A DNA stretch of 20,246 bases from positions 1 through 20,246 of the IMG/VR virus record IMGVR_UViG_3300034198_006218. One strand, 5' to 3'. The translations under genes were made by a program, and so were the position numbers. The notes beneath the pieces are model-generated. The model saw only the letters and a list, made by a program, of their open reading frames with translations. It did no database searches and had not been told where the DNA came from. Shown in pieces: positions 2,978-11,964 of this stretch (position 1 is its first letter; every line of letters begins with the position of its first letter). This stretch comes from a virus.

Positions 2978-5900
2978 ATGTCTGATTTCGAGTCTAAAAT
3001 TGATATCAATATTGATGCTGGTCAAGCACTAGCAGCAATTAAGACACTTCAAAGACAGATTTCAGACTTTCATACCTCCTTGGCTAAGGGTAGTGCAACA
3101 GCCAATATAAAATCACTACAAATGCAGCAATCGCTAATTGACACAATTAATGCAACTGGTCAATATTCAGCATCAATGAAAACTGTTGCATCATCAACAC
3201 AAACTTTTACTACAGCACTTGAAAAGAATAAACTGTCAATGGGACAGTACTTCAAATATGCTGGTGGAGCATCTAAGAGCTTTGGAAAATTCTTTAGAAC
3301 AGAAATGGACACTATCCAGAAGGTAGCCATTGAAAGAGTTAAAGACCTACAAACACAGTACGTCAAAATGGGGCGTGATGCTAATGGAGCAATCAAAACT
3401 ATTGCTATACGACCACTGGCACTTGACATGGAAAACCTGTCAACAAAAACACAAATTGCTGCACAAAAACAGCAGCTTCTAAACCAACTTCTAAAGCAGG
3501 GTTCTACAAACCTTCTAAACTTTGGTAAGAATACCCAGTGGGCTGGTCGTCAGCTTATGGTTGGTTTTACCATTCCTCTTGGTATTCTTGGAACTACTGC
3601 TGCTAGAACATTTATGAACATGGAAAAGCAAGCAATTGCTTTTAAGCGTGTTTATGGAGATACCTTTACAGCAAGCAAAGAAACAGATGCAATGCTCAAG
3701 CAGGTCCAGCAACTTGCTTCTGAATTTACTAAATATGGTGTAGCAGTTGAAAAGACAATGGAACAAGCAGCTAAGGCTGCTGCCACAGGTAAAATGGGGG
3801 CAGACCTACTAGCCCAGGTATCAGAAGCAACAAGACTTTCTGTGTTGGGTAACGTAGAGCAAGCACAAGCACTTGAAACAACAATCTCTCTTACCAATGC
3901 CTTTGGAACTGCTGCAGATGAGCTACGTGGCAAAATTAACTTTCTAAACGCAGTTGAAAACCAAACTGTAACGTCTATTGAAGACCTTACAATTGCTATT
4001 CCAAAAGCAGCACCAGTAATTAAACAATTGGGCGGTAATGTAGAGGACCTTACGTTCTTCCTTACTGCTATGCGTGAAGGTGGCATTAATGCTTCTGAAA
4101 GTGCTAACGCACTAAAGTCTGGTTTGGCATCGCTTATTAATCCAACCAAAAAAGCTTCTGACTTTCTTCAAAGTTTTGGTATTAACATTAATAAAATTGT
4201 TGAAGGAAATAAAGGTGACGTACAGGGTCTGGTTGTAGACTTTGCTAAAGCACTTGACACCCTTGACCCACTAAATCGTGCTCGTGCTATTGAACAACTA
4301 TTTGGTAAGTTCCAGTTCTCACGTCTATCTACATTGTTCCAGAACGTAATTAAAGACGGTAGCCAAGCAGCAAGAGTTCTAGAACTAACTAGACAATCAT
4401 CTGCAGAGCTAGGTATTCTTGCTCAACGAGAGCTTAATAGAATTGCTTCGTCACCAATGTATAAGTTTGAAAAAGCGGTAGCAGACTTTAAGAAAGAACT
4501 TGCACCAGTTGGTGAAGAATTCCTAAAGGCAGTAACACCTATTATTAATTTTGCAACAGATGTACTAAAAGCTTTTAATAATCTTGATGGTGGTGTAAAG
4601 CAGTTTATTGTAAACTCTACTGGTCTAATTGCTGGTATTGGTCCAGTCTTCCTAATGACATTTGGTTTGCTTGCTAACGGTGTTGCAAATATTATTAAAG
4701 GTTTTACTTTTGTAAAAAATGTGTTTAATAAGGCTGCTTCAGCATCTACCGTTCTTGGTGAGACAACCGACTACATGACTCAGCAGCAGCTAGAGGCAGC
4801 ATCAGTAGCAGCATCTCTTGAGCAAGTACACAATAAGCTAACCCAAGCATTTACAGTAGAGGCTACCGCTGTTGGAAAGCTTGCTTCTGCTTATCAAAAA
4901 GCCATTGCTGCACAAGTGGCTTTTACTGGTCCAGCACCAGCAGGAAAAGGTAGAGCACCAAAGAAATATGCAGCTGGTGTCTTTAGCGTTCCAGGTCCAA
5001 AGGGTGCTGGAGACATTGTTCCAGCAATGCTTTCTCCAGGTGAAGCAGTTATTCCTGCAGGACCAGCACAAAAATATCGTGGTTTTATAAAAGGCATGAT
5101 TTCTGGAAAGATTCCAGGATTTAACGATGGCACAGAAGAAGTAAAGCCTAAAAACCCTAAAAAGGTGGTAACACTTGGAGCTGCAATTAGCAAGATGAGT
5201 TCAGACCAACCAACACATCTTACAAATCAAACTGCAGCTCTGATGCATGCAGACTTTCCTAACGAGCAAGAAATTGTTAGACAAGCTTTTGCAGCACAAG
5301 GATTTGACATTGTAGGAAATGACGATGACCGAAAAAGCTATGGCGGACTAATGCAGCCTCATGCAGCACACATTGGTGGAGAAGGCTCACGCCGTGCAGT
5401 AGCGATAAATACCAAAGGCGGATGGTTTGCAAGATGGATTAAAAACTGGGCAGCTAAATTTATTACTCCACAAATAGGCGTTATGAACAAGTATATGCAA
5501 GACATCTCTGACCCAGATATGGAAACAAAAGCAGCCGACCCTAAGCAAAAAGGAAAAAAGGTTGCTCTCTATAGAGACTTTTTGCGAGAAGACAATATAA
5601 AAAGAGTTGCAAAAGCCCTAAAAATTCCAGTTGCAGAAGTAATAAAACACGCAAAACATTTGTTTGCTGGAAATGAAGCACTAACTCCACAAGAAACTGC
5701 AGTTCTTGGAAAAATTGCAGAAACACACAGAGACAGTATAAGAGTTACAGACAGAATGGGTAAATCTGCACGTAGAAAAGCAAACGCTGAAATTGCAAGA
5801 ACTAGTTCTATTGTAAGTCTTGCTGCACGTAGAGTATCTATGGCTAACGACCCAGGAGGATATTTTCTTGGCAGGGGAAAATATAAAGATGACAAGAAAA

Positions 5901-8900
5901 AGAACGAAACCTTCGATAGAACCCAAGAAAGAAAACTAGAGGCTGCTACAAAAAGAGCCACAGTAGCAGAAATTAAAGCACGTAATGACCAGGAAGCACT
6001 AGCTGCAGCACAGTCTAAAGAAGCAGTCACTGAAACTAAAGGTGCCAAACGCAGAACAAGAAAAGCGGCAACAAACGCAAAGCCTAAAACAAAGCCTAAA
6101 ACAAAGCCTAAAGAGCCTCAGTCAAAAGTAACCCCAGTGCCAAAGGTAACTACAAGTGAAGACCTTGGTGAAGGACTCAGAAGAGTCGTTTCAACTGATG
6201 CAAATGGAAAACAAAAAGAAACTTATTACCAGCAAGGTCGTAGAGGTGCTCTATCAGCTACCGCAGCTCAAGCAATGCTTGCTGCTCGTTCTGGTGCTAC
6301 TGCTAGTCCTGGAGGAAGAGTAAAGAGATTCCTAACAGGAGCTACTGGCAAGGTTGCTGGTGGAAGCATGATTGGTTCTATGATTGCTCGTTCAGTAGGT
6401 GGCGAAGGTGGAGATGGGCTTGCAAACATCCTTGACATAGTAAGCACTGCTGCATTTGCTAAGGGAATGTTTCCAGAAAAACCTCTTGGTCCAGATGGCA
6501 AAAAGGTTCCTAGCCGTATTGGAACGGCAATTAGAGGCAGCACGATTGCTAAAAAAATAACACCATACCTAGATGACCTTGCAAGAGCTCTTAAAGTTGC
6601 TGCTCCAGGAATCCTAAGAGTTCTTGGACCAGTTGGTCTTGTTGTAACTGGAGGAACTATTGCATTCGATATCCTTACAGAAAAAGCAAGAAAACAGTCT
6701 GAAATCGCTGGTGCACTACTTGATACAGTTCTCGTTACAAAAGACAAGCTAGAAGCTGTAAACAACTTCTTTGGAACTGAAGCAAAGCTATCAAGTATTA
6801 GAGAAGCAGGTCCAGTTGGAATTGGAGAAACTCAAGGCGGTGCTTCTCTTGCAGAACAGTTTAGAACCAGCGAAGAATTCCAAAAAACCTATAAACCATT
6901 TGTTGAAAAAATTATTGAGGGCAGTGGCTCAGACATAACTCTAGCACTAAACTCACTAGCCGTTGAGCTAATGGCAAGCGGTCTAGACAAAGAAGTTGTT
7001 CAAATTATTATTGATGCTATCAAGCAAGAGGCAAAAAGAACAGACCTAGTAATTGACGTAAACAGCCTATCTCTTGATACAAAAGGAGGTCTAGAACAGC
7101 TAAGAAAGGGTATTGCTTCAGCAATTAGTGACTACAAGAGCAAGGTAAGCGAATTTGACCCATTTGGCTTTAATGCTAATTCTCTAAAACTATCGCTACA
7201 AGAAGTTACAAACTTCCTAAATGGTTTGGGTACAGCATATCAATCAACAGCAGTTAGCTCAAAAGACTTCAACAGACAGTATGACCTATTTATTCAAAAA
7301 GTAAATACTCTTTCATCAAAAGAAGATAAGCTAAAGTTCCTTAACGATTCGCTAAAGCTTCTTTCTCCAGAAATTGCTGCACTAACTCAAGGACTATATA
7401 ATTTAGACAGTGCAGCACTTCTTGTAAAACTTACTCTTGCTGGAATTGGCATAAGTAAAGAAGCTGCAAATATTCTAAGAGTTAATGACCCTAAAGACGT
7501 GAAGGCTTTTTATGAGGCTGCTGACAAGGCATTTAAAGCAAAAGATAAGCAGCTCGCTTCCTTAACTGCAAAACAAAAACAGCTTACGGATGCACAAGAA
7601 CAGCTAGAGAAAAAAGAAAGTGACATTAATGATAAGTACGACGAAAGAATTACAGCACTTGAAAGAATTAATGACCTACAAAAACAAATTGCAGAAAAAC
7701 AAAAGTCACAGCTTGACCTAGCAGATGCACTTTCAAGAGGAGATGTTTTTGCTGCTGCAAAAGCAGTTCAAGATATTAGAGCCAAGGATGCTCAGTATGC
7801 AATAGAGCAGCAAAAGCAAGCTTTAGAAGATGCTAGAGCAAAAGAGACAGGTGCTGTACAGGATAAAATTGGTGGAATTCAGAAACAGATTCAAAACATT
7901 GATTCTCAAATTTTGCAAATTCAGAATGCAAATATTACTATTGATACATACCTATCTAAAGAAGATTATGAAGCTGGCTACGAACTTCCTCCAATTAAAC
8001 CAGAACTAAGACCAGGTATTCCAAAGGGGCAAGGTATCCGTGTATTTAAAGACGACAAGGGAAAGCAGTATACCACAGTAGAACAGCTAAACCAATTCTT
8101 AAATGCTGGATGGAAGAGTACCACTAGGGTTGGTACAACCTTTCCAGATAAAGATGGCAAAACATGGAAGGTTACTCAGGCAGTAGATACCGATGGAAAC
8201 AATGAGCCAAATTTTGTATACGTTACTCCAGCCGAAGTTAAAAAGGCAGCTGGTGGATATATTTCTGGTCCAGGTAGCGGTACAAGCGATTCAATCCCAG
8301 CAAGACTTTCAGACGGTGAATATGTTATTAGAGCAAAGGCAGTACAAGCCCTAGGAACAAATGTTCTTGACAAAATGAACTACGCAGATAAATTTGCTAA
8401 GGGTGGAATTGTAAATAAGCCAAAAACTGGAAGCACAGCAAGCATTTACTCTGATGATAAATCAGTGGACATGAGTGATGGTAATGTTATTGGTCACGGT
8501 CTAAACTTTGTAATGAACAGCATTTACGAAATGTTGTTTGGTAAGTGGGCTGTAAAGACAAAACAGGGAACTCCTACTGCACCAGACCTTGAAGACATGG
8601 GAACAATGGCAATGAACATTGTTCCAATCCCAGGAATGAAAGGATTTAAGTCAGCCCAACTAGCAGCAAAGGGCTTTATGCAGACTGGAACAGTTGCTGG
8701 AGCAAAAGCTGCTCAGTCTGGAGCAAAGCTAAAAGCCCTAGATAGCTTTAGTCTTTCTAGCCCACTAACAAGGCAGGGTGTAGAAATTGGCGAAATGGCT
8801 AAATACACTCCAACACAATCAGACTACTACCTAAAAGCATACAAGAGCGATACAGCAGTTCAAATGCCATATAAGGGAATTAATGAGCCACTTGCCTACT

Positions 8901-11293
8901 GGCTTTCACAACGACTTGGGTCTGACGTAGTTCCCTATGAATTCCTAAAATTTGGTAAGGGTGCTGGAGAAACTATTGGTCCATTTGGAATGGTAAAAGA
9001 TAGTGCAACACTAGTTGCATCAAAAATAAATAAAAACCTAATAACTGGAATGCTAGGAAATAATGCCTTGATGAATTCCCCACAAATGGAAAAAATATTT
9101 TTGAATGCATATAAGCAAGGTGGTCCAGAAGCACTGAAAAAAGCAATTCAGGAATACTTAGCATCAATTCAAAAATATGCAGATAACACATCTCTATTGA
9201 ATACACTGTTTAGTAATGCCGATATTCATGGCAAGAATGTAATGTATGATACTGCTTCAAAAGCAATTACGCAATTGGACTTTGGTCACGCTGGACTTTT
9301 TACAGACCTTCTTAGTGGTAGTTACTCTAAGCTACCTACAAAATTTTCATACCTTAATGATTTTTATACTAAAAATCCTTTAGAAAGTTTAAGCCCAGGT
9401 GATTTGGGATACGACGTAATAAAGCTAGAGCAAGGCTTACAAAGTTTCTTGTTAGACGCTAGCAGAACAATACCAGAACTGCCAGAAATAATGTCTAGCA
9501 TTAATGCTGGCAAAACAATAATGAATCCAGACAATTTCTTAAAAGGATTGTCAAATTTGTATAAGTCTGGAGACCCACTAGAAGCTTTTGTTAAAGATGC
9601 TTCTATGGGCGACCGAGGTCTAGAAAAATGGCTAACAAGTATGTTGCTAAAAGACGTTCAAGGAATTTCTGGCAAAACAAATATATCAAAATCATTTGCA
9701 GATGTTGTAGATGATATGATTAAGTTTGTTCCAAGTCTTTTGAAAAAACTTCCAAAAGTAGAAAACTGGTTTAATGTTCCAGGTATGACACCTAAAAAAC
9801 CACTTGGCAAGAGTGGCGTAGTAGACATACAGGCACCAAATGTTGGTAACGAGTTTAAACCATGGCACACTGGACCACAAGCTAAAAATGGTGGACTTGT
9901 TAAGTTTGCTAAGGGTGGACTTGTTAAGCGAGACGTAACCTCATCAGACCCAGGTCTTGACTGGTTTAATAGCTTTATTCAAAACCTTCTAGGTGGTGGT
10001 AACCCATCTGCTGCTATGCAAAATGATGCCACTAAGTCATTGCTTGCTCAATCATACACCCAGGGTGCCAAGAACATGGGGGTAGACCCAACAGACCCAA
10101 TGTTCTATGCATCAATGTTTGCACCATCTATGGGTATCAAAGCTCTTGGTATGGCTGGTAAGGGTGTCTCAAAACTAAAGGGACTTTCTGCATCAAAGAA
10201 TACTGGACCACGTGTAACGCTTGCTAACTATATAGATACCCCAAGAGTTTCTCAAGCATATCTAAACTTTATGAGAACTAATCCAGCAATTTCTGTAAGA
10301 ATGAGAAGCGAGCAGCTTATCGACAAACTTGCTAAAAAAGATTTTGCTTATAGGAATGCATTTGAAGAAGGCATGGTTGTTGACGACTTAGACCCTAGAC
10401 TAGAAGTTGAGAATATGCTTTTTGGTTTGGGCAAGGATGCTCCAGCATCTTCTAGACCAATCTATGGAGCAGGAGTTAGCCCATATACTCCATGGAGCAT
10501 TAGAGGAAAGGCATCAAGAAATGACAATGCTTTTGAACGTTGGGCTTTAAGAAGTAAGTCTTCAAACATTAATTCAGAATATTTTGACCGATACGGAGAT
10601 ATTTCGCTACTGCTAAAGAATAGAGTAAAGAAGCGTTCTACCTTTACTCTTGGAGATAGTTTTGTTGCAAGAAAAACAGACTCTCTTGTTCCAGGTGGAA
10701 CAAAGAAAACAGTTGCAGCACCATTTGGAACAATGAGTCAATCAAAAATCCTTGGTGCATCAACAGCAATGAATAGACCAGAGTTGCAATTTGTTGAAGC
10801 ACAAATTTTTGGTGGACTTCCATTCTCTGACATTAAAAAGATTATTGTCAAAAATCCAGAAATGATTCCGTTGCTACAGCAAAAACTTGCAGAAGCTGGA
10901 CTAAAAATTCCTGTAGGGCAAACAAAGCTCAGTCCTCTAGGCAAGCTAAATGAAATGTTCTATAAGAATAAAGTTCACGGACCTACTGGATTACCCATGT
11001 TTATTCCTCAATATAAATCTGGTGGAATGTTCCGCACACCATATGCAAATGGTGGTCTTGCTATGCTTCACGATAAAGAGTTTGTAATGAACCCTGGGGC
11101 AGTTAAAGAATACGGTGTTGACAAGCTTAAAGCCATGAATAACGGTACATATAATGGTGGTTCAGTGTATAATAGTTATGGAGTAAATATTAGCGTTGAT
11201 GGTTCTAATACTAGTGCAAATGATATTGCAAGAACAGTAATTAAAGAAATCAAACGACTAGACTCACAAAATCTTAGGAGCACAGCGGTTTAA
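2978..11293 (+). CDS. Tape measure protein with embedded enzyme-like modules
   Basis: At 2771 residues this is a very large tape measure protein; it sets tail length and is ejected with the DNA. GAGGT at 2965-2969 supports the start. Residues ~200-520 are a TP901-type tape measure domain (NMEKQAIAFKRVYGDTF; later AIPKAAPVIKQLGGNVEDL), followed by a hydrophobic stretch at ~545-580 and another at ~1205-1240. Residues ~1510-1660 form a long coiled coil containing ADALSRGDVFAAAKAVQDIR. A recurring motif with LSPGEAVI, LSDGEYVI or LHDKEFVM (E689, E1781, E2701) flanks extra segments. These are a His-containing unrecognised module (~740-1010), a kinase-like module (~1926-2220) and an ADP-ribosyltransferase-like module (~2410-2660). 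The C-terminus (VNISVDGSNTSANDIARTVI) is typical of the family. The stop overlaps the next ATG (TAATG). The tape measure call is firm; the module calls are inferences. Confidence 0.95.
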   Translation: MSDFESKIDINIDAGQALAAIKTLQRQISDFHTSLAKGSATANIKSLQMQQSLIDTINATGQYSASMKTVASSTQTFTTALEKNKLSMGQYFKYAGGASKSFGKFFRTEMDTIQKVAIERVKDLQTQYVKMGRDANGAIKTIAIRPLALDMENLSTKTQIAAQKQQLLNQLLKQGSTNLLNFGKNTQWAGRQLMVGFTIPLGILGTTAARTFMNMEKQAIAFKRVYGDTFTASKETDAMLKQVQQLASEFTKYGVAVEKTMEQAAKAAATGKMGADLLAQVSEATRLSVLGNVEQAQALETTISLTNAFGTAADELRGKINFLNAVENQTVTSIEDLTIAIPKAAPVIKQLGGNVEDLTFFLTAMREGGINASESANALKSGLASLINPTKKASDFLQSFGININKIVEGNKGDVQGLVVDFAKALDTLDPLNRARAIEQLFGKFQFSRLSTLFQNVIKDGSQAARVLELTRQSSAELGILAQRELNRIASSPMYKFEKAVADFKKELAPVGEEFLKAVTPIINFATDVLKAFNNLDGGVKQFIVNSTGLIAGIGPVFLMTFGLLANGVANIIKGFTFVKNVFNKAASASTVLGETTDYMTQQQLEAASVAASLEQVHNKLTQAFTVEATAVGKLASAYQKAIAAQVAFTGPAPAGKGRAPKKYAAGVFSVPGPKGAGDIVPAMLSPGEAVIPAGPAQKYRGFIKGMISGKIPGFNDGTEEVKPKNPKKVVTLGAAISKMSSDQPTHLTNQTAALMHADFPNEQEIVRQAFAAQGFDIVGNDDDRKSYGGLMQPHAAHIGGEGSRRAVAINTKGGWFARWIKNWAAKFITPQIGVMNKYMQDISDPDMETKAADPKQKGKKVALYRDFLREDNIKRVAKALKIPVAEVIKHAKHLFAGNEALTPQETAVLGKIAETHRDSIRVTDRMGKSARRKANAEIARTSSIVSLAARRVSMANDPGGYFLGRGKYKDDKKKNETFDRTQERKLEAATKRATVAEIKARNDQEALAAAQSKEAVTETKGAKRRTRKAATNAKPKTKPKTKPKEPQSKVTPVPKVTTSEDLGEGLRRVVSTDANGKQKETYYQQGRRGALSATAAQAMLAARSGATASPGGRVKRFLTGATGKVAGGSMIGSMIARSVGGEGGDGLANILDIVSTAAFAKGMFPEKPLGPDGKKVPSRIGTAIRGSTIAKKITPYLDDLARALKVAAPGILRVLGPVGLVVTGGTIAFDILTEKARKQSEIAGALLDTVLVTKDKLEAVNNFFGTEAKLSSIREAGPVGIGETQGGASLAEQFRTSEEFQKTYKPFVEKIIEGSGSDITLALNSLAVELMASGLDKEVVQIIIDAIKQEAKRTDLVIDVNSLSLDTKGGLEQLRKGIASAISDYKSKVSEFDPFGFNANSLKLSLQEVTNFLNGLGTAYQSTAVSSKDFNRQYDLFIQKVNTLSSKEDKLKFLNDSLKLLSPEIAALTQGLYNLDSAALLVKLTLAGIGISKEAANILRVNDPKDVKAFYEAADKAFKAKDKQLASLTAKQKQLTDAQEQLEKKESDINDKYDERITALERINDLQKQIAEKQKSQLDLADALSRGDVFAAAKAVQDIRAKDAQYAIEQQKQALEDARAKETGAVQDKIGGIQKQIQNIDSQILQIQNANITIDTYLSKEDYEAGYELPPIKPELRPGIPKGQGIRVFKDDKGKQYTTVEQLNQFLNAGWKSTTRVGTTFPDKDGKTWKVTQAVDTDGNNEPNFVYVTPAEVKKAAGGYISGPGSGTSDSIPARLSDGEYVIRAKAVQALGTNVLDKMNYADKFAKGGIVNKPKTGSTASIYSDDKSVDMSDGNVIGHGLNFVMNSIYEMLFGKWAVKTKQGTPTAPDLEDMGTMAMNIVPIPGMKGFKSAQLAAKGFMQTGTVAGAKAAQSGAKLKALDSFSLSSPLTRQGVEIGEMAKYTPTQSDYYLKAYKSDTAVQMPYKGINEPLAYWLSQRLGSDVVPYEFLKFGKGAGETIGPFGMVKDSATLVASKINKNLITGMLGNNALMNSPQMEKIFLNAYKQGGPEALKKAIQEYLASIQKYADNTSLLNTLFSNADIHGKNVMYDTASKAITQLDFGHAGLFTDLLSGSYSKLPTKFSYLNDFYTKNPLESLSPGDLGYDVIKLEQGLQSFLLDASRTIPELPEIMSSINAGKTIMNPDNFLKGLSNLYKSGDPLEAFVKDASMGDRGLEKWLTSMLLKDVQGISGKTNISKSFADVVDDMIKFVPSLLKKLPKVENWFNVPGMTPKKPLGKSGVVDIQAPNVGNEFKPWHTGPQAKNGGLVKFAKGGLVKRDVTSSDPGLDWFNSFIQNLLGGGNPSAAMQNDATKSLLAQSYTQGAKNMGVDPTDPMFYASMFAPSMGIKALGMAGKGVSKLKGLSASKNTGPRVTLANYIDTPRVSQAYLNFMRTNPAISVRMRSEQLIDKLAKKDFAYRNAFEEGMVVDDLDPRLEVENMLFGLGKDAPASSRPIYGAGVSPYTPWSIRGKASRNDNAFERWALRSKSSNINSEYFDRYGDISLLLKNRVKKRSTFTLGDSFVARKTDSLVPGGTKKTVAAPFGTMSQSKILGASTAMNRPELQFVEAQIFGGLPFSDIKKIIVKNPEMIPLLQQKLAEAGLKIPVGQTKLSPLGKLNEMFYKNKVHGPTGLPMFIPQYKSGGMFRTPYANGGLAMLHDKEFVMNPGAVKEYGVDKLKAMNNGTYNGGSVYNSYGVNISVDGSNTSANDIARTVIKEIKRLDSQNLRSTAV
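5195..6007 (+). other. Unrecognised module inside the tape measure (residues ~740-1010)
   Basis: After the first LSPGEAVI motif the protein departs from the usual repetitive tape measure texture. It shows THLTNQTAALMHADFPNEQE, GLMQPHAAHIGGEGSRRAVA and a Trp-rich GGWFARWIKNWAAKF, then a helical, basic region with IKRVAKALKIPVAEVIKHAK. Clustered histidines (THLT, LMHAD, QPHAAHIGG) could bind a metal or form an active site, but I recognise no family. The segment ends in a Lys-rich linker. Confidence 0.35.
6079..6114 (+). repeat. Three tandem 12-base repeats (K-P-K-T linker)
   Basis: The unit AAAGCCTAAAAC occurs at 6079-6090 and 6091-6102 and, with its last two bases changed, at 6103-6114. It encodes a KPKTKPKTKPKE linker in the tape measure between the unrecognised module and the following hydrophobic region. 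Tandem repeats of this kind expand and shrink easily. Confidence 0.85.
8753..9637 (+). other. Kinase-like module inside the tape measure (residues ~1926-2220)
   Basis: The order of elements matches protein kinase-like folds of the HipA / PI3-4 kinase type. A possible nucleotide loop (RQGVEIGEMAKYTPT) leads into a strand with an invariant-type lysine (DYYLKAYK, K1953). A helix with a glutamate follows (INEPLAYWLSQRLG, E1970), then VPYEFLKF and a hinge-like GPFGMVKD. The catalytic loop NADIHGKNVMYD (D2082, N2087) comes next, and AITQLDFGHAG (D2101-F-G) ten residues after it. This combination is unlikely by chance. It lies after the LSDGEYVI motif, where tape measures of this style would usually soon end. 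Confidence 0.6.
10205..10957 (+). other. ADP-ribosyltransferase/toxin-like module inside the tape measure (residues ~2410-2660)
   Basis: RSTFTLGDSF (R2553) and, about 50 residues later, PELQFVEAQIFGGLPFSDIKKI (E2602, Q2604, E2607, Q2609) resemble the Arg / Ser-Thr / acidic E-x-[EQ] strand order of R-S-E class ADP-ribosyltransferases and related phage polymorphic toxin domains (DUF3626-like). The spacing is compatible, but the match rests on short motifs. It is followed by SGG, a Gly-rich linker and the last LHDKEFVM motif. Confidence 0.3.
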
Positions 11294-11964
11294 TGCCAAA
11301 TAACGCAGATTATATAGTAGGTAGAAAAAAGTATTCTCGTCCACAGGCTATGCTTTGGGCAGACAATAAGGGTACGCTAGCTGCCTACAATGGGCAAAAC
11401 TATTATGTTCCAACTGGCAACGAAGTAAATGCTGCAACTGGCACTGGCGATTTTCTAATCCTATCTGACGACAACAGAAGCCCCATAGATTTTGCTCAAC
11501 AAAGAATTGAAAATAGAAGAAGGACCGTTAACGGTCGTATGCGTTCATATCACATTGCAGACAAGCTACAGATATCTCTTTCTTGGGATATGCTTCCGTC
11601 ACGCTCTTTTTCTAATGACCCAAACTTTAATACTACAACTGGAAAACCAACAACTACTGGATATTCTGGTGTAGAAAAAACTAGTCTACCAGGAAACTAC
11701 CTTTATCAATATACAACCGATGGCGGTGCTGGCGGTGCAGAAATTTTAGATTGGTATGAGAACAACAAGGGTTCTTTTTGGGTATATCTTTCTTACGATA
11801 AGTATCCAAATTTTGAAGGAGTGGCACAAGGCAAGTACGCAAACTTAGGAAAATATAGCCAAGTTGTAGAGATGTTTATTTCTGACTTTAGTTATTCTGT
11901 TGTAAAACGTGGAGGCACTAATTTTGACTTTTGGAACATTAGTGTTACCTTGGAAGAGGCATAA
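11293..11964 (+). CDS. Distal tail (Dit-like) minor tail protein
   Basis: The gene encodes 223 residues and starts within the tape measure stop (TAATG), so it is probably translated by reinitiation. It follows the tape measure directly, the usual place of the distal tail protein that forms the hub between the tube and the tip. Sequence landmarks are SPIDFAQQRIENRRRTVNGR, then KLQISLSWDMLPSRSF, a mid-region AEILDWYENNKGSFWVYL, and a C-terminal strand pair (MFISDFSYSVVKR and FDFWNISVTLEE). The alternation of strands fits the beta-sandwich/galectin-like build of this family, and the closing FWNISVTLEEA is typical of actinobacteriophage-like minor tail proteins after the tape measure. I see no enzyme motif. 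Confidence 0.9.
   Translation: MPNNADYIVGRKKYSRPQAMLWADNKGTLAAYNGQNYYVPTGNEVNAATGTGDFLILSDDNRSPIDFAQQRIENRRRTVNGRMRSYHIADKLQISLSWDMLPSRSFSNDPNFNTTTGKPTTTGYSGVEKTSLPGNYLYQYTTDGGAGGAEILDWYENNKGSFWVYLSYDKYPNFEGVAQGKYANLGKYSQVVEMFISDFSYSVVKRGGTNFDFWNISVTLEEA

Follow-up and report, generated by a model that had tools for sequence, protein, structure and literature searches.

The window, by which we mean the whole stretch of DNA analysed (20,246 bases), is a complete virus record that is itself probably a fragment. On its forward strand, which bears all the tape measure features described below, a single open reading frame (ORF; positions 2978–11293) encodes a tape measure protein (TMP) of 2771 residues. 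The protein matches the Pfam family PhageMin_Tail (PF10145; E-value 8e-26, 91.6 bits against a cut-off of 33.2), which identifies its TMP core, and matches PHROG tape-measure families with E-values down to 1.1e-97. An earlier note, made from the DNA alone, had placed a kinase-like domain at positions 8753–9637, within a phage tape measure; this location holds, as the interval comprises codons 1926–2220 of the ORF. The opposite strand of the interval contains many stops in the one frame translated. The genes flanking the TMP are consistent with a siphophage tail module: the ORF at 1105–1824 matches the PHROG ‘protein with Ig domain’ (1.8e-29) and, more weakly, ‘major tail protein’ (1.8e-4), while the ORF at 11964–16700 matches ‘minor tail protein’. 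Upstream of the TMP gene, two adjacent genes (1895–2587 and 2636–2953) both match PHROG 10504 over their first ~95 residues, with E-values of 1.5e-17 and 1.5e-16, respectively; the pair may represent a duplication or tail chaperone-like genes.

The TMP contains a constant core (residues 34–648; positions 3077–4921), whose relatives, 62–97% identical, are encoded by the 47 loci kept and the best 80 of 589. A spacer motif of the MLSPGEAVI type (residues ~657–718; 4946–5131) opens a first variable region, zone A, which includes a putative cargo segment (residues 743–999; 5204–5974). This segment is mostly common to the related locus L006, partly to L115, L014, L122 and L123, and matches no Pfam family above cut-off. 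A constant anchor, probably a coiled coil (residues 1520–1655; 7535–7942), separates zone A from a second variable region, zone C, whose first part carries spacer motif 2, TSDSIPARLSDGEYVI (residues ~1755–1814; 8240–8419). Zone C holds two cargo domains, the kinase-like domain (residues 1926–2220; 8753–9637) and a DUF3626-like domain (residues 2433–2657; 10274–10948), the Pfam match of which (E-value 7e-4, 19.1 bits) lies below the cut-off of 27. The protein closes with a constant C-terminal anchor that includes spacer motif 3 (residues 2676–2771; 11003–11290).

To compare this arrangement across the family, we used 113 distinct TMPs, including that of the window, gathered by core similarity; L001–L003 and identical copies were dropped, and 81 of the proteins are complete. 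About 110 TMPs share sequence with the window TMP in the core and 73 near the C-terminus, compared with one over residues ~1900–2380. Among the complete proteins, the coil anchor is present in 76 and the C-terminal anchor in 80; zone A is defined as the region before the coil anchor and zone C as the region between the two anchors. Zone A has a median length of 1557.5 residues. For zone C, the median is 266 residues and the longest example reaches 1051; that of the window measures about 1020 by arithmetic from the anchors. The complete TMPs range from 1229 to 3667 residues (n = 81). Spacer motifs (LSxGEYVI and relatives) lie at or near the zone borders.

The nearest relative without the kinase-like segment, L006, has a core 87% identical to that of the window and carries an unrelated segment in the same slot. 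This zone C domain of L006 reappears in L017, in zone A, and in L204, between the coil and the C-terminus. Likewise, the DUF3626-like domain, located in zone C in the window, is found in zone A in L025, L028, L064, L075 and L027. In all, 28 high-scoring segment pairs of at least 120 residues (both directions counted) connect the two zones across different TMPs, zone A in one protein and zone C in the other; because these occur in 11 of 76 TMPs, cross-zone sharing is a minority feature. Judged by sequence comparison, the swapping of segments between constant anchors is cassette behaviour.

Pfam searches of 18 TMPs from about residue 700 onward returned three families at E ≤ 0.01, of which two are glycine zippers. 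The sole cargo above a Pfam cut-off is a CHAP domain (E-value 3.9e-8) in L219, an ORF with no detected TMP anchor. A further recurring cargo is present in L006 (residues 1864–2016), L204, L017, L081 and L165/L206, and a GPGTY motif is common to three aligned members. By eye, motifs of this type had suggested an ADP-ribosyltransferase, an assignment that we do not make: Pfam gave nothing for the segments of L204, L233, L165 and L135, NCBIfam listed no ADP-ribosyltransferase family for L006, L233 and L135, and a PDB sequence search found no ADP-ribosyltransferase for a profile of L006, L204 and L165, nor for L135.

The hosts of this phage group are probably actinobacterial. A WhiB protein, an actinobacterial marker according to PMC6802176, is encoded in seven of 12 hand-chosen records of the group, which points to actinobacterial hosts; it is absent from G004, the record of L001. 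In the control, Corynebacterium glutamicum was the only positive among 14 genomes. The top named relatives of the TMP core, among the best 60 of 627, are Streptomyces phages (28–32% identical). A scan for the core in genome_contigs (84,980 species) yielded 17 stretches, with no relative among them at that scan’s sensitivity.

Within residues 1926–2220, the elements of a kinase signature follow one another: K1953, a putative beta-3 lysine (8834–8836); E1970, a putative helix-C glutamate (8885–8887); the catalytic loop D2082-I-H-G-K-N2087 (9221–9238); and the metal-binding D2101-F-G (9278–9286). The residues named in the earlier note, together with H2084, all read in frame at their positions, and the catalytic Asp, the metal-binding Asn and the DFG Asp stand in kinase-like order and spacing. 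PI3/PI4- and HipA-like kinases have the same motif order, DxHxxN...DFG. The pattern D.H..N.(8–30).hDFG arose in none of 20,000 shuffles of the window TMP. With a spacing of 9–24, the motif was found among the ORFs of loci below L124 in the window TMP, L001–L005 (a copy or close relatives of it) and L110, another TMP, and nowhere else. A rerun over 1,238 ORFs (595,474 residues) listed L003 alone, a copy of the window; this count is not a clean background because duplicate removal had renamed known carriers. K1953 and E1970 are common residues and on their own constitute weak evidence. No Gly-rich loop was seen in the segment, and N2087 is preceded by K in the window but by M in L001/L002. Residues 1926–2081 contain no His at all; the His of the catalytic loop stands two residues past D2082.

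Two viral contigs (L001/L002) carry the segment at 89% identity. Their TMPs, of 2756 residues, collapse as identical on deduplication, and the occurrence of the same TMP on two contigs makes an assembly chimera unlikely. Between the window and L001, dN is 0.059 and dS 0.414 over 295 codons (dN/dS about 0.14), values that show purifying selection on the kinase-like segment. Scanning viral contigs for the motif returned 77 loci, including L142, whose wider region is L204. Its domain aligns with the window segment at 26% identity over 184 alignment columns (BLASTP), with an E-value of 3.7e-13 in the motif-selected set and 1.8e-12 when searched in its whole record. L204 encodes a 3122-residue TMP of the same core family, its core being 67% identical to that of the window. 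The window, L001 and L204 agree in having K, E, D, N and D; as L204 was found via the motif, its D, H, N and DFG were preselected, while the lysine of YLK, the glutamate of EP and the remaining similarity are independent. By this alignment, a second TMP carries a significant homologue of the window segment.

The earlier note had looked to related tape measures for conservation of D2082, N2087 and D2101. These residues are kept wherever the domain is present, but the domain itself is sparse: the signature is absent in 110 of the 112 other core-collected TMPs (32 of the full 113 being cut by a contig or locus end) and present in L004 and L110, and L006, a comparable close relative, has other cargo at this position. 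The segment, used as a 433-residue query at E ≤ 0.01, had no match in 50,697 phage records, and a search for its pattern in genome_contigs gave 30 stretches with no relative among them. For the domains of L110, L142 and L230, a threshold of E ≤ 0.1 likewise brought up no phage record. A relative scan with alignment A1 recovered just two loci, both known, and one with alignment A6 recovered four, one of them on a new contig.

Profile searches agreed in part with the proposed link to HipA and PI3/4-kinases. HipA_C (E-values 0.059–0.076) and PI3_PI4_kinase (0.057–0.093), both kinase-fold families, are the only Pfam families listed for the window segment at E-values up to 1, but both remain far below their cut-offs (PF07804, 13.1–13.4 bits against 30.5; PF00454, 13.1–13.8 bits against 27.1), and both matches rest on the same motif. 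The HipA_C match with an E-value of 0.059 spans model residues 30–172, from the N-terminal part to the catalytic loop. The L204 domain (as L142) scores 21.2 bits with PI3_PI4_kinase (E-value 3.2e-4; cut-off 27.1), and that of L001 matches PI3_PI4_kinase (0.081) and DUF6645 (0.13). Over 16 members, which include the type c and d domains described below, Pfam listed ABC1 for seven (best 0.019), PI3_PI4_kinase for four (best 4.1e-4) and HipA_C for one, in addition to eight unrelated single matches. When a profile of the 16 TMP domains, 13 rows of which are types c and d, was compared with PDB sequences, 27 of 28 matches (E-values up to 10) were PI4K, TOR or mTOR, the best at 0.0073. A seven-member profile gave kinases in nine of ten matches, yet its top match was ClpX, and a profile of the window, L001 and L204 only gave three matches, none to a kinase. 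PHROGs and NCBIfam listed no kinase for the segment.

Structure prediction, which the earlier note had proposed as a check, gave AlphaFold models of very low confidence, with mean pLDDT values of 30.7 (two sequences) and 36.5 (16 sequences). For the second model, Foldseek found no match at E ≤ 0.001 in the PDB or BFVD. In the VIA table for this model, 27 of the 50 listed rows are kinase-fold chains by our own count, which excludes inositol hexakisphosphate kinase; most of these rows cover the part ahead of the motif, and the best Z, 3.9 over 58 residues, is too low to rely on. In this weak model, the elements run in the order strand, helix, two strands, long helix, two strands ending at DFG, and helices. 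The kinase-like reading is partly supported: its signature is real and kept in relatives, the Pfam scores fall below cut-off, and the models are too poor to give a fold. A hydrophobic translocation stretch just ahead of the domain was also considered and dropped, since none of the four peaks of a hydropathy scan falls at residues 1840–1925.

Two further groups of TMP-like ORFs with the signature emerged from two motif scans, so that D, H, N and DFG were preselected in the motif-found members. Type c comprises L165 (two copies), L135/L208, L110/L216, L207, L268, L259, L223 and L224, and type d comprises L230/L247, L217, L253, L219 and L233. At least one TMP anchor, in some cases weak, was detected in 14 of the 16 ORFs tested, the window included, and none in L219 and L223; in the eight ORFs that combine a core with the signature, the core precedes the signature by more than 1,400 residues. 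L206 (4557 residues) and L207 (4573 residues) are very long TMPs, and L206 has two kinase-signature domains in one chain.

Types c and d are 21–27% identical to each other and 11–17% identical to the window domain. In a 16-row alignment the invariant columns are K, E, P, D, H, N, D, F, G and L, with D, H, N, D, F and G preselected. The invariant K and E, in alignment A7, had suggested a common origin with the window domain, which neither a shuffle control nor HMM or hhalign comparisons support. When the front part of the window domain was realigned to types c and d, 11 of 200 shuffles matched both K and E, whereas the real alignment matched K and not E1970; 39 of 200 shuffles had as many invariant columns as the real sequence. 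For L204, neither K nor E was matched and 127 of 200 shuffles were equally good. An HMM of type c and L204, built without the window, matched the window only around the motif, and its E-value of 5e-4 was no better than those that many further motif-selected ORFs obtained; hhalign of the window and L001 against types c and d covered 28 columns with a probability of 4.9. Because the front-part alignment is no better than shuffles and the similarity is confined to the motif, this carrier may have recruited kinase-like domains more than once, with types c and d taken up separately from the window domain.

The motif scans also met other kinase-like phage ORFs. L190, L130, L134, L169 and others are large, have no TMP spacers and carry AHGD/AHND...GN..DFG kinase-like motifs, three copies in the case of L130; L190 and L130 also have cysteine-rich stretches, and L134 has a Pkinase match (9e-6) below cut-off. 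A separate family of L212, L215, L244 and 23 others, mostly ~220–280 residues long, has DRHxxN, DFG and a lysine, with a glycine-rich loop in most members; the two members scanned matched no Pfam family above cut-off.

Taken together, we propose, with a probability of roughly 60%, that residues 1926–2220 form an atypical kinase-like domain that serves as interchangeable TMP cargo, is delivered with the DNA and modifies a host target early in infection. On this proposal the domain would fold as a kinase and be active. It would exit the virion as infection begins, together with the TMP, either refolding or staying folded on the way; several copies of a folded domain of this size would have to find room in or below the tail tube. 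At the host envelope or in the cytoplasm, it would phosphorylate, or otherwise modify with ATP, a host protein or small molecule, and this modification would favour takeover of the cell or block a defence. T4 Alt, described as injected with the DNA (PMC5512222) and acting by ADP-ribosylation, offers a comparison. Two further reports describe the lambda TMP beside inner-membrane proteins during injection (PMC13190303) and a gene transfer agent TMP proposed to be ejected with DNA (PMC7296036). Different phages of the family carry different cassettes, so the slot probably tracks host-specific targets. We extend the proposal, with slightly less than even odds, to the TMPs of a large phage clade, which could constitute a polymorphic effector-delivery system with a constant ruler and anchors, two cassette zones and spacer motifs as recombination points. 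Kinase-like, DUF3626-like, cell-wall-hydrolase and other domains would then be swapped into the TMP zones, and each infecting particle would inject a chosen set of enzymes before phage gene expression.

The enzyme could instead work in the producing cell or in the virion, modifying the TMP or tail proteins during assembly or gating DNA release, with no host target. A TMP is a structural protein made late, and the cargo is flanked by constant anchors, both of which would suit such a role; we nevertheless consider it unlikely. Relatives with similar cores, foremost L006 at 87% identity, lack the domain, and assembly in this family therefore does not need it. Moreover, the unrelated segments that occupy the slot in other phages suit effectors better than assembly factors.

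Two other explanations concern the domain itself. It may be a relic of a kinase fold, or a pseudo-kinase, that is globular and without catalysis and is kept for its size, for envelope binding or as a tail-tip plug. The lack of a visible Gly-rich loop, the variable residue before N2087 and the weak profile scores point in this direction. However, the window, L001 and L204 all retain the five residues K, E, D, N and D (the last three preselected in L204), and the segment is subject to purifying selection, two observations that make a relic or pseudo-kinase improbable in our view. Alternatively, the segment may have another fold, unrelated to kinases, and the motif may have arisen by chance or convergence. 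Such an origin would accord with the very low confidence of both AlphaFold models, with the narrow profile that finds no kinase in the PDB and with a similarity to types c and d confined to the motif. We give it a low likelihood, in view of the motif’s absence from all shuffles, the kinase-fold nature of both listed Pfam families, the strand and helix order of the weak second model with DFG after two strands, and the 27 of 50 VIA rows that are kinase-fold and mostly lie ahead of the motif, though with a Z of 3.9 at best.

Among known systems, the PI3/PI4-kinase-like and PIKK proteins (PF00454) share the DxHxxN and DFG order with the window domain and provide the best PDB matches of the 16-domain profile, but the likeness is seen in the catalytic segment and the window falls below the Pfam cut-off. 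The resemblance to HipA-like kinases (PF07804) is likewise weak and below cut-off, with the family listed for one of 16 members. Enzyme domains can ride in TMPs, since cell-wall hydrolase domains occur in those of mycobacteriophage TM4 and T5 (pb2). A CHAP domain is also present in L219, whose cargo is of a similar kind; hydrolases open the wall, whereas the kinase-like domain would act on another type of substrate. TMPs with cell-wall hydrolase domains are also the subject of an enterococcal survey (PMC10194240). In the window family, a tail protein holds the cargo, flanked on either side by a constant anchor. MuF toxins, in contrast, are C-terminal on their carrier, a head protein. Common to both, and to other phage polymorphic toxins (PMC5576092, PMC12226406), is a constant structural carrier with variable enzymatic cassettes.

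Kinases in injected multidomain phage proteins have already been predicted, in other carriers and for another kinase group: the polyvalent proteins of phages and conjugative elements, described in 2017, include a group of kinase domains (PMC5512222). Polyvalent proteins resemble the window TMP in their large size, their multidomain make-up and their predicted entry into the host alongside the DNA, with swappable effectors that include kinases and ADP-ribosyltransferases. Their kinases come mainly from Verrucomicrobia-Chlamydia and Bacteroidetes (pro)phages, and in them a conserved His precedes the catalytic Asp, separated from it by an insert, whereas the window domain lacks this His and follows the order DxHxxN. 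The carrier differs as well, being here a tape measure, a term with no occurrence in PMC5512222. Among the papers listed, judged mostly by titles and the openings of abstracts in a literature that covers few subscription papers and no bioRxiv, none was seen to describe a tape measure with a kinase-like domain. In the examined sections of PMC7824862 and PMC8876498, kinase and tape measure appear separately, and the examined parts of two freshwater actinophage papers (PMC10202952, PMC6802176) do not mention ‘tape measure’. A 2023 survey could confirm no genuine recent case of TMP mosaicism (PMC10684548).

If the reading proposed here is true, the TMP family of the window would provide plain cases of such mosaicism, and its cassettes would help explain the spread in TMP length. 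Siphophage tails would deliver enzymes that are built into the ruler itself, which would permit an attack on the host in the first minute, without gene expression. The polymorphic-carrier reading of TMPs would be a larger novelty than the kinase-like domain alone, and the cassettes would represent a source of undescribed effectors that can be tested one by one.
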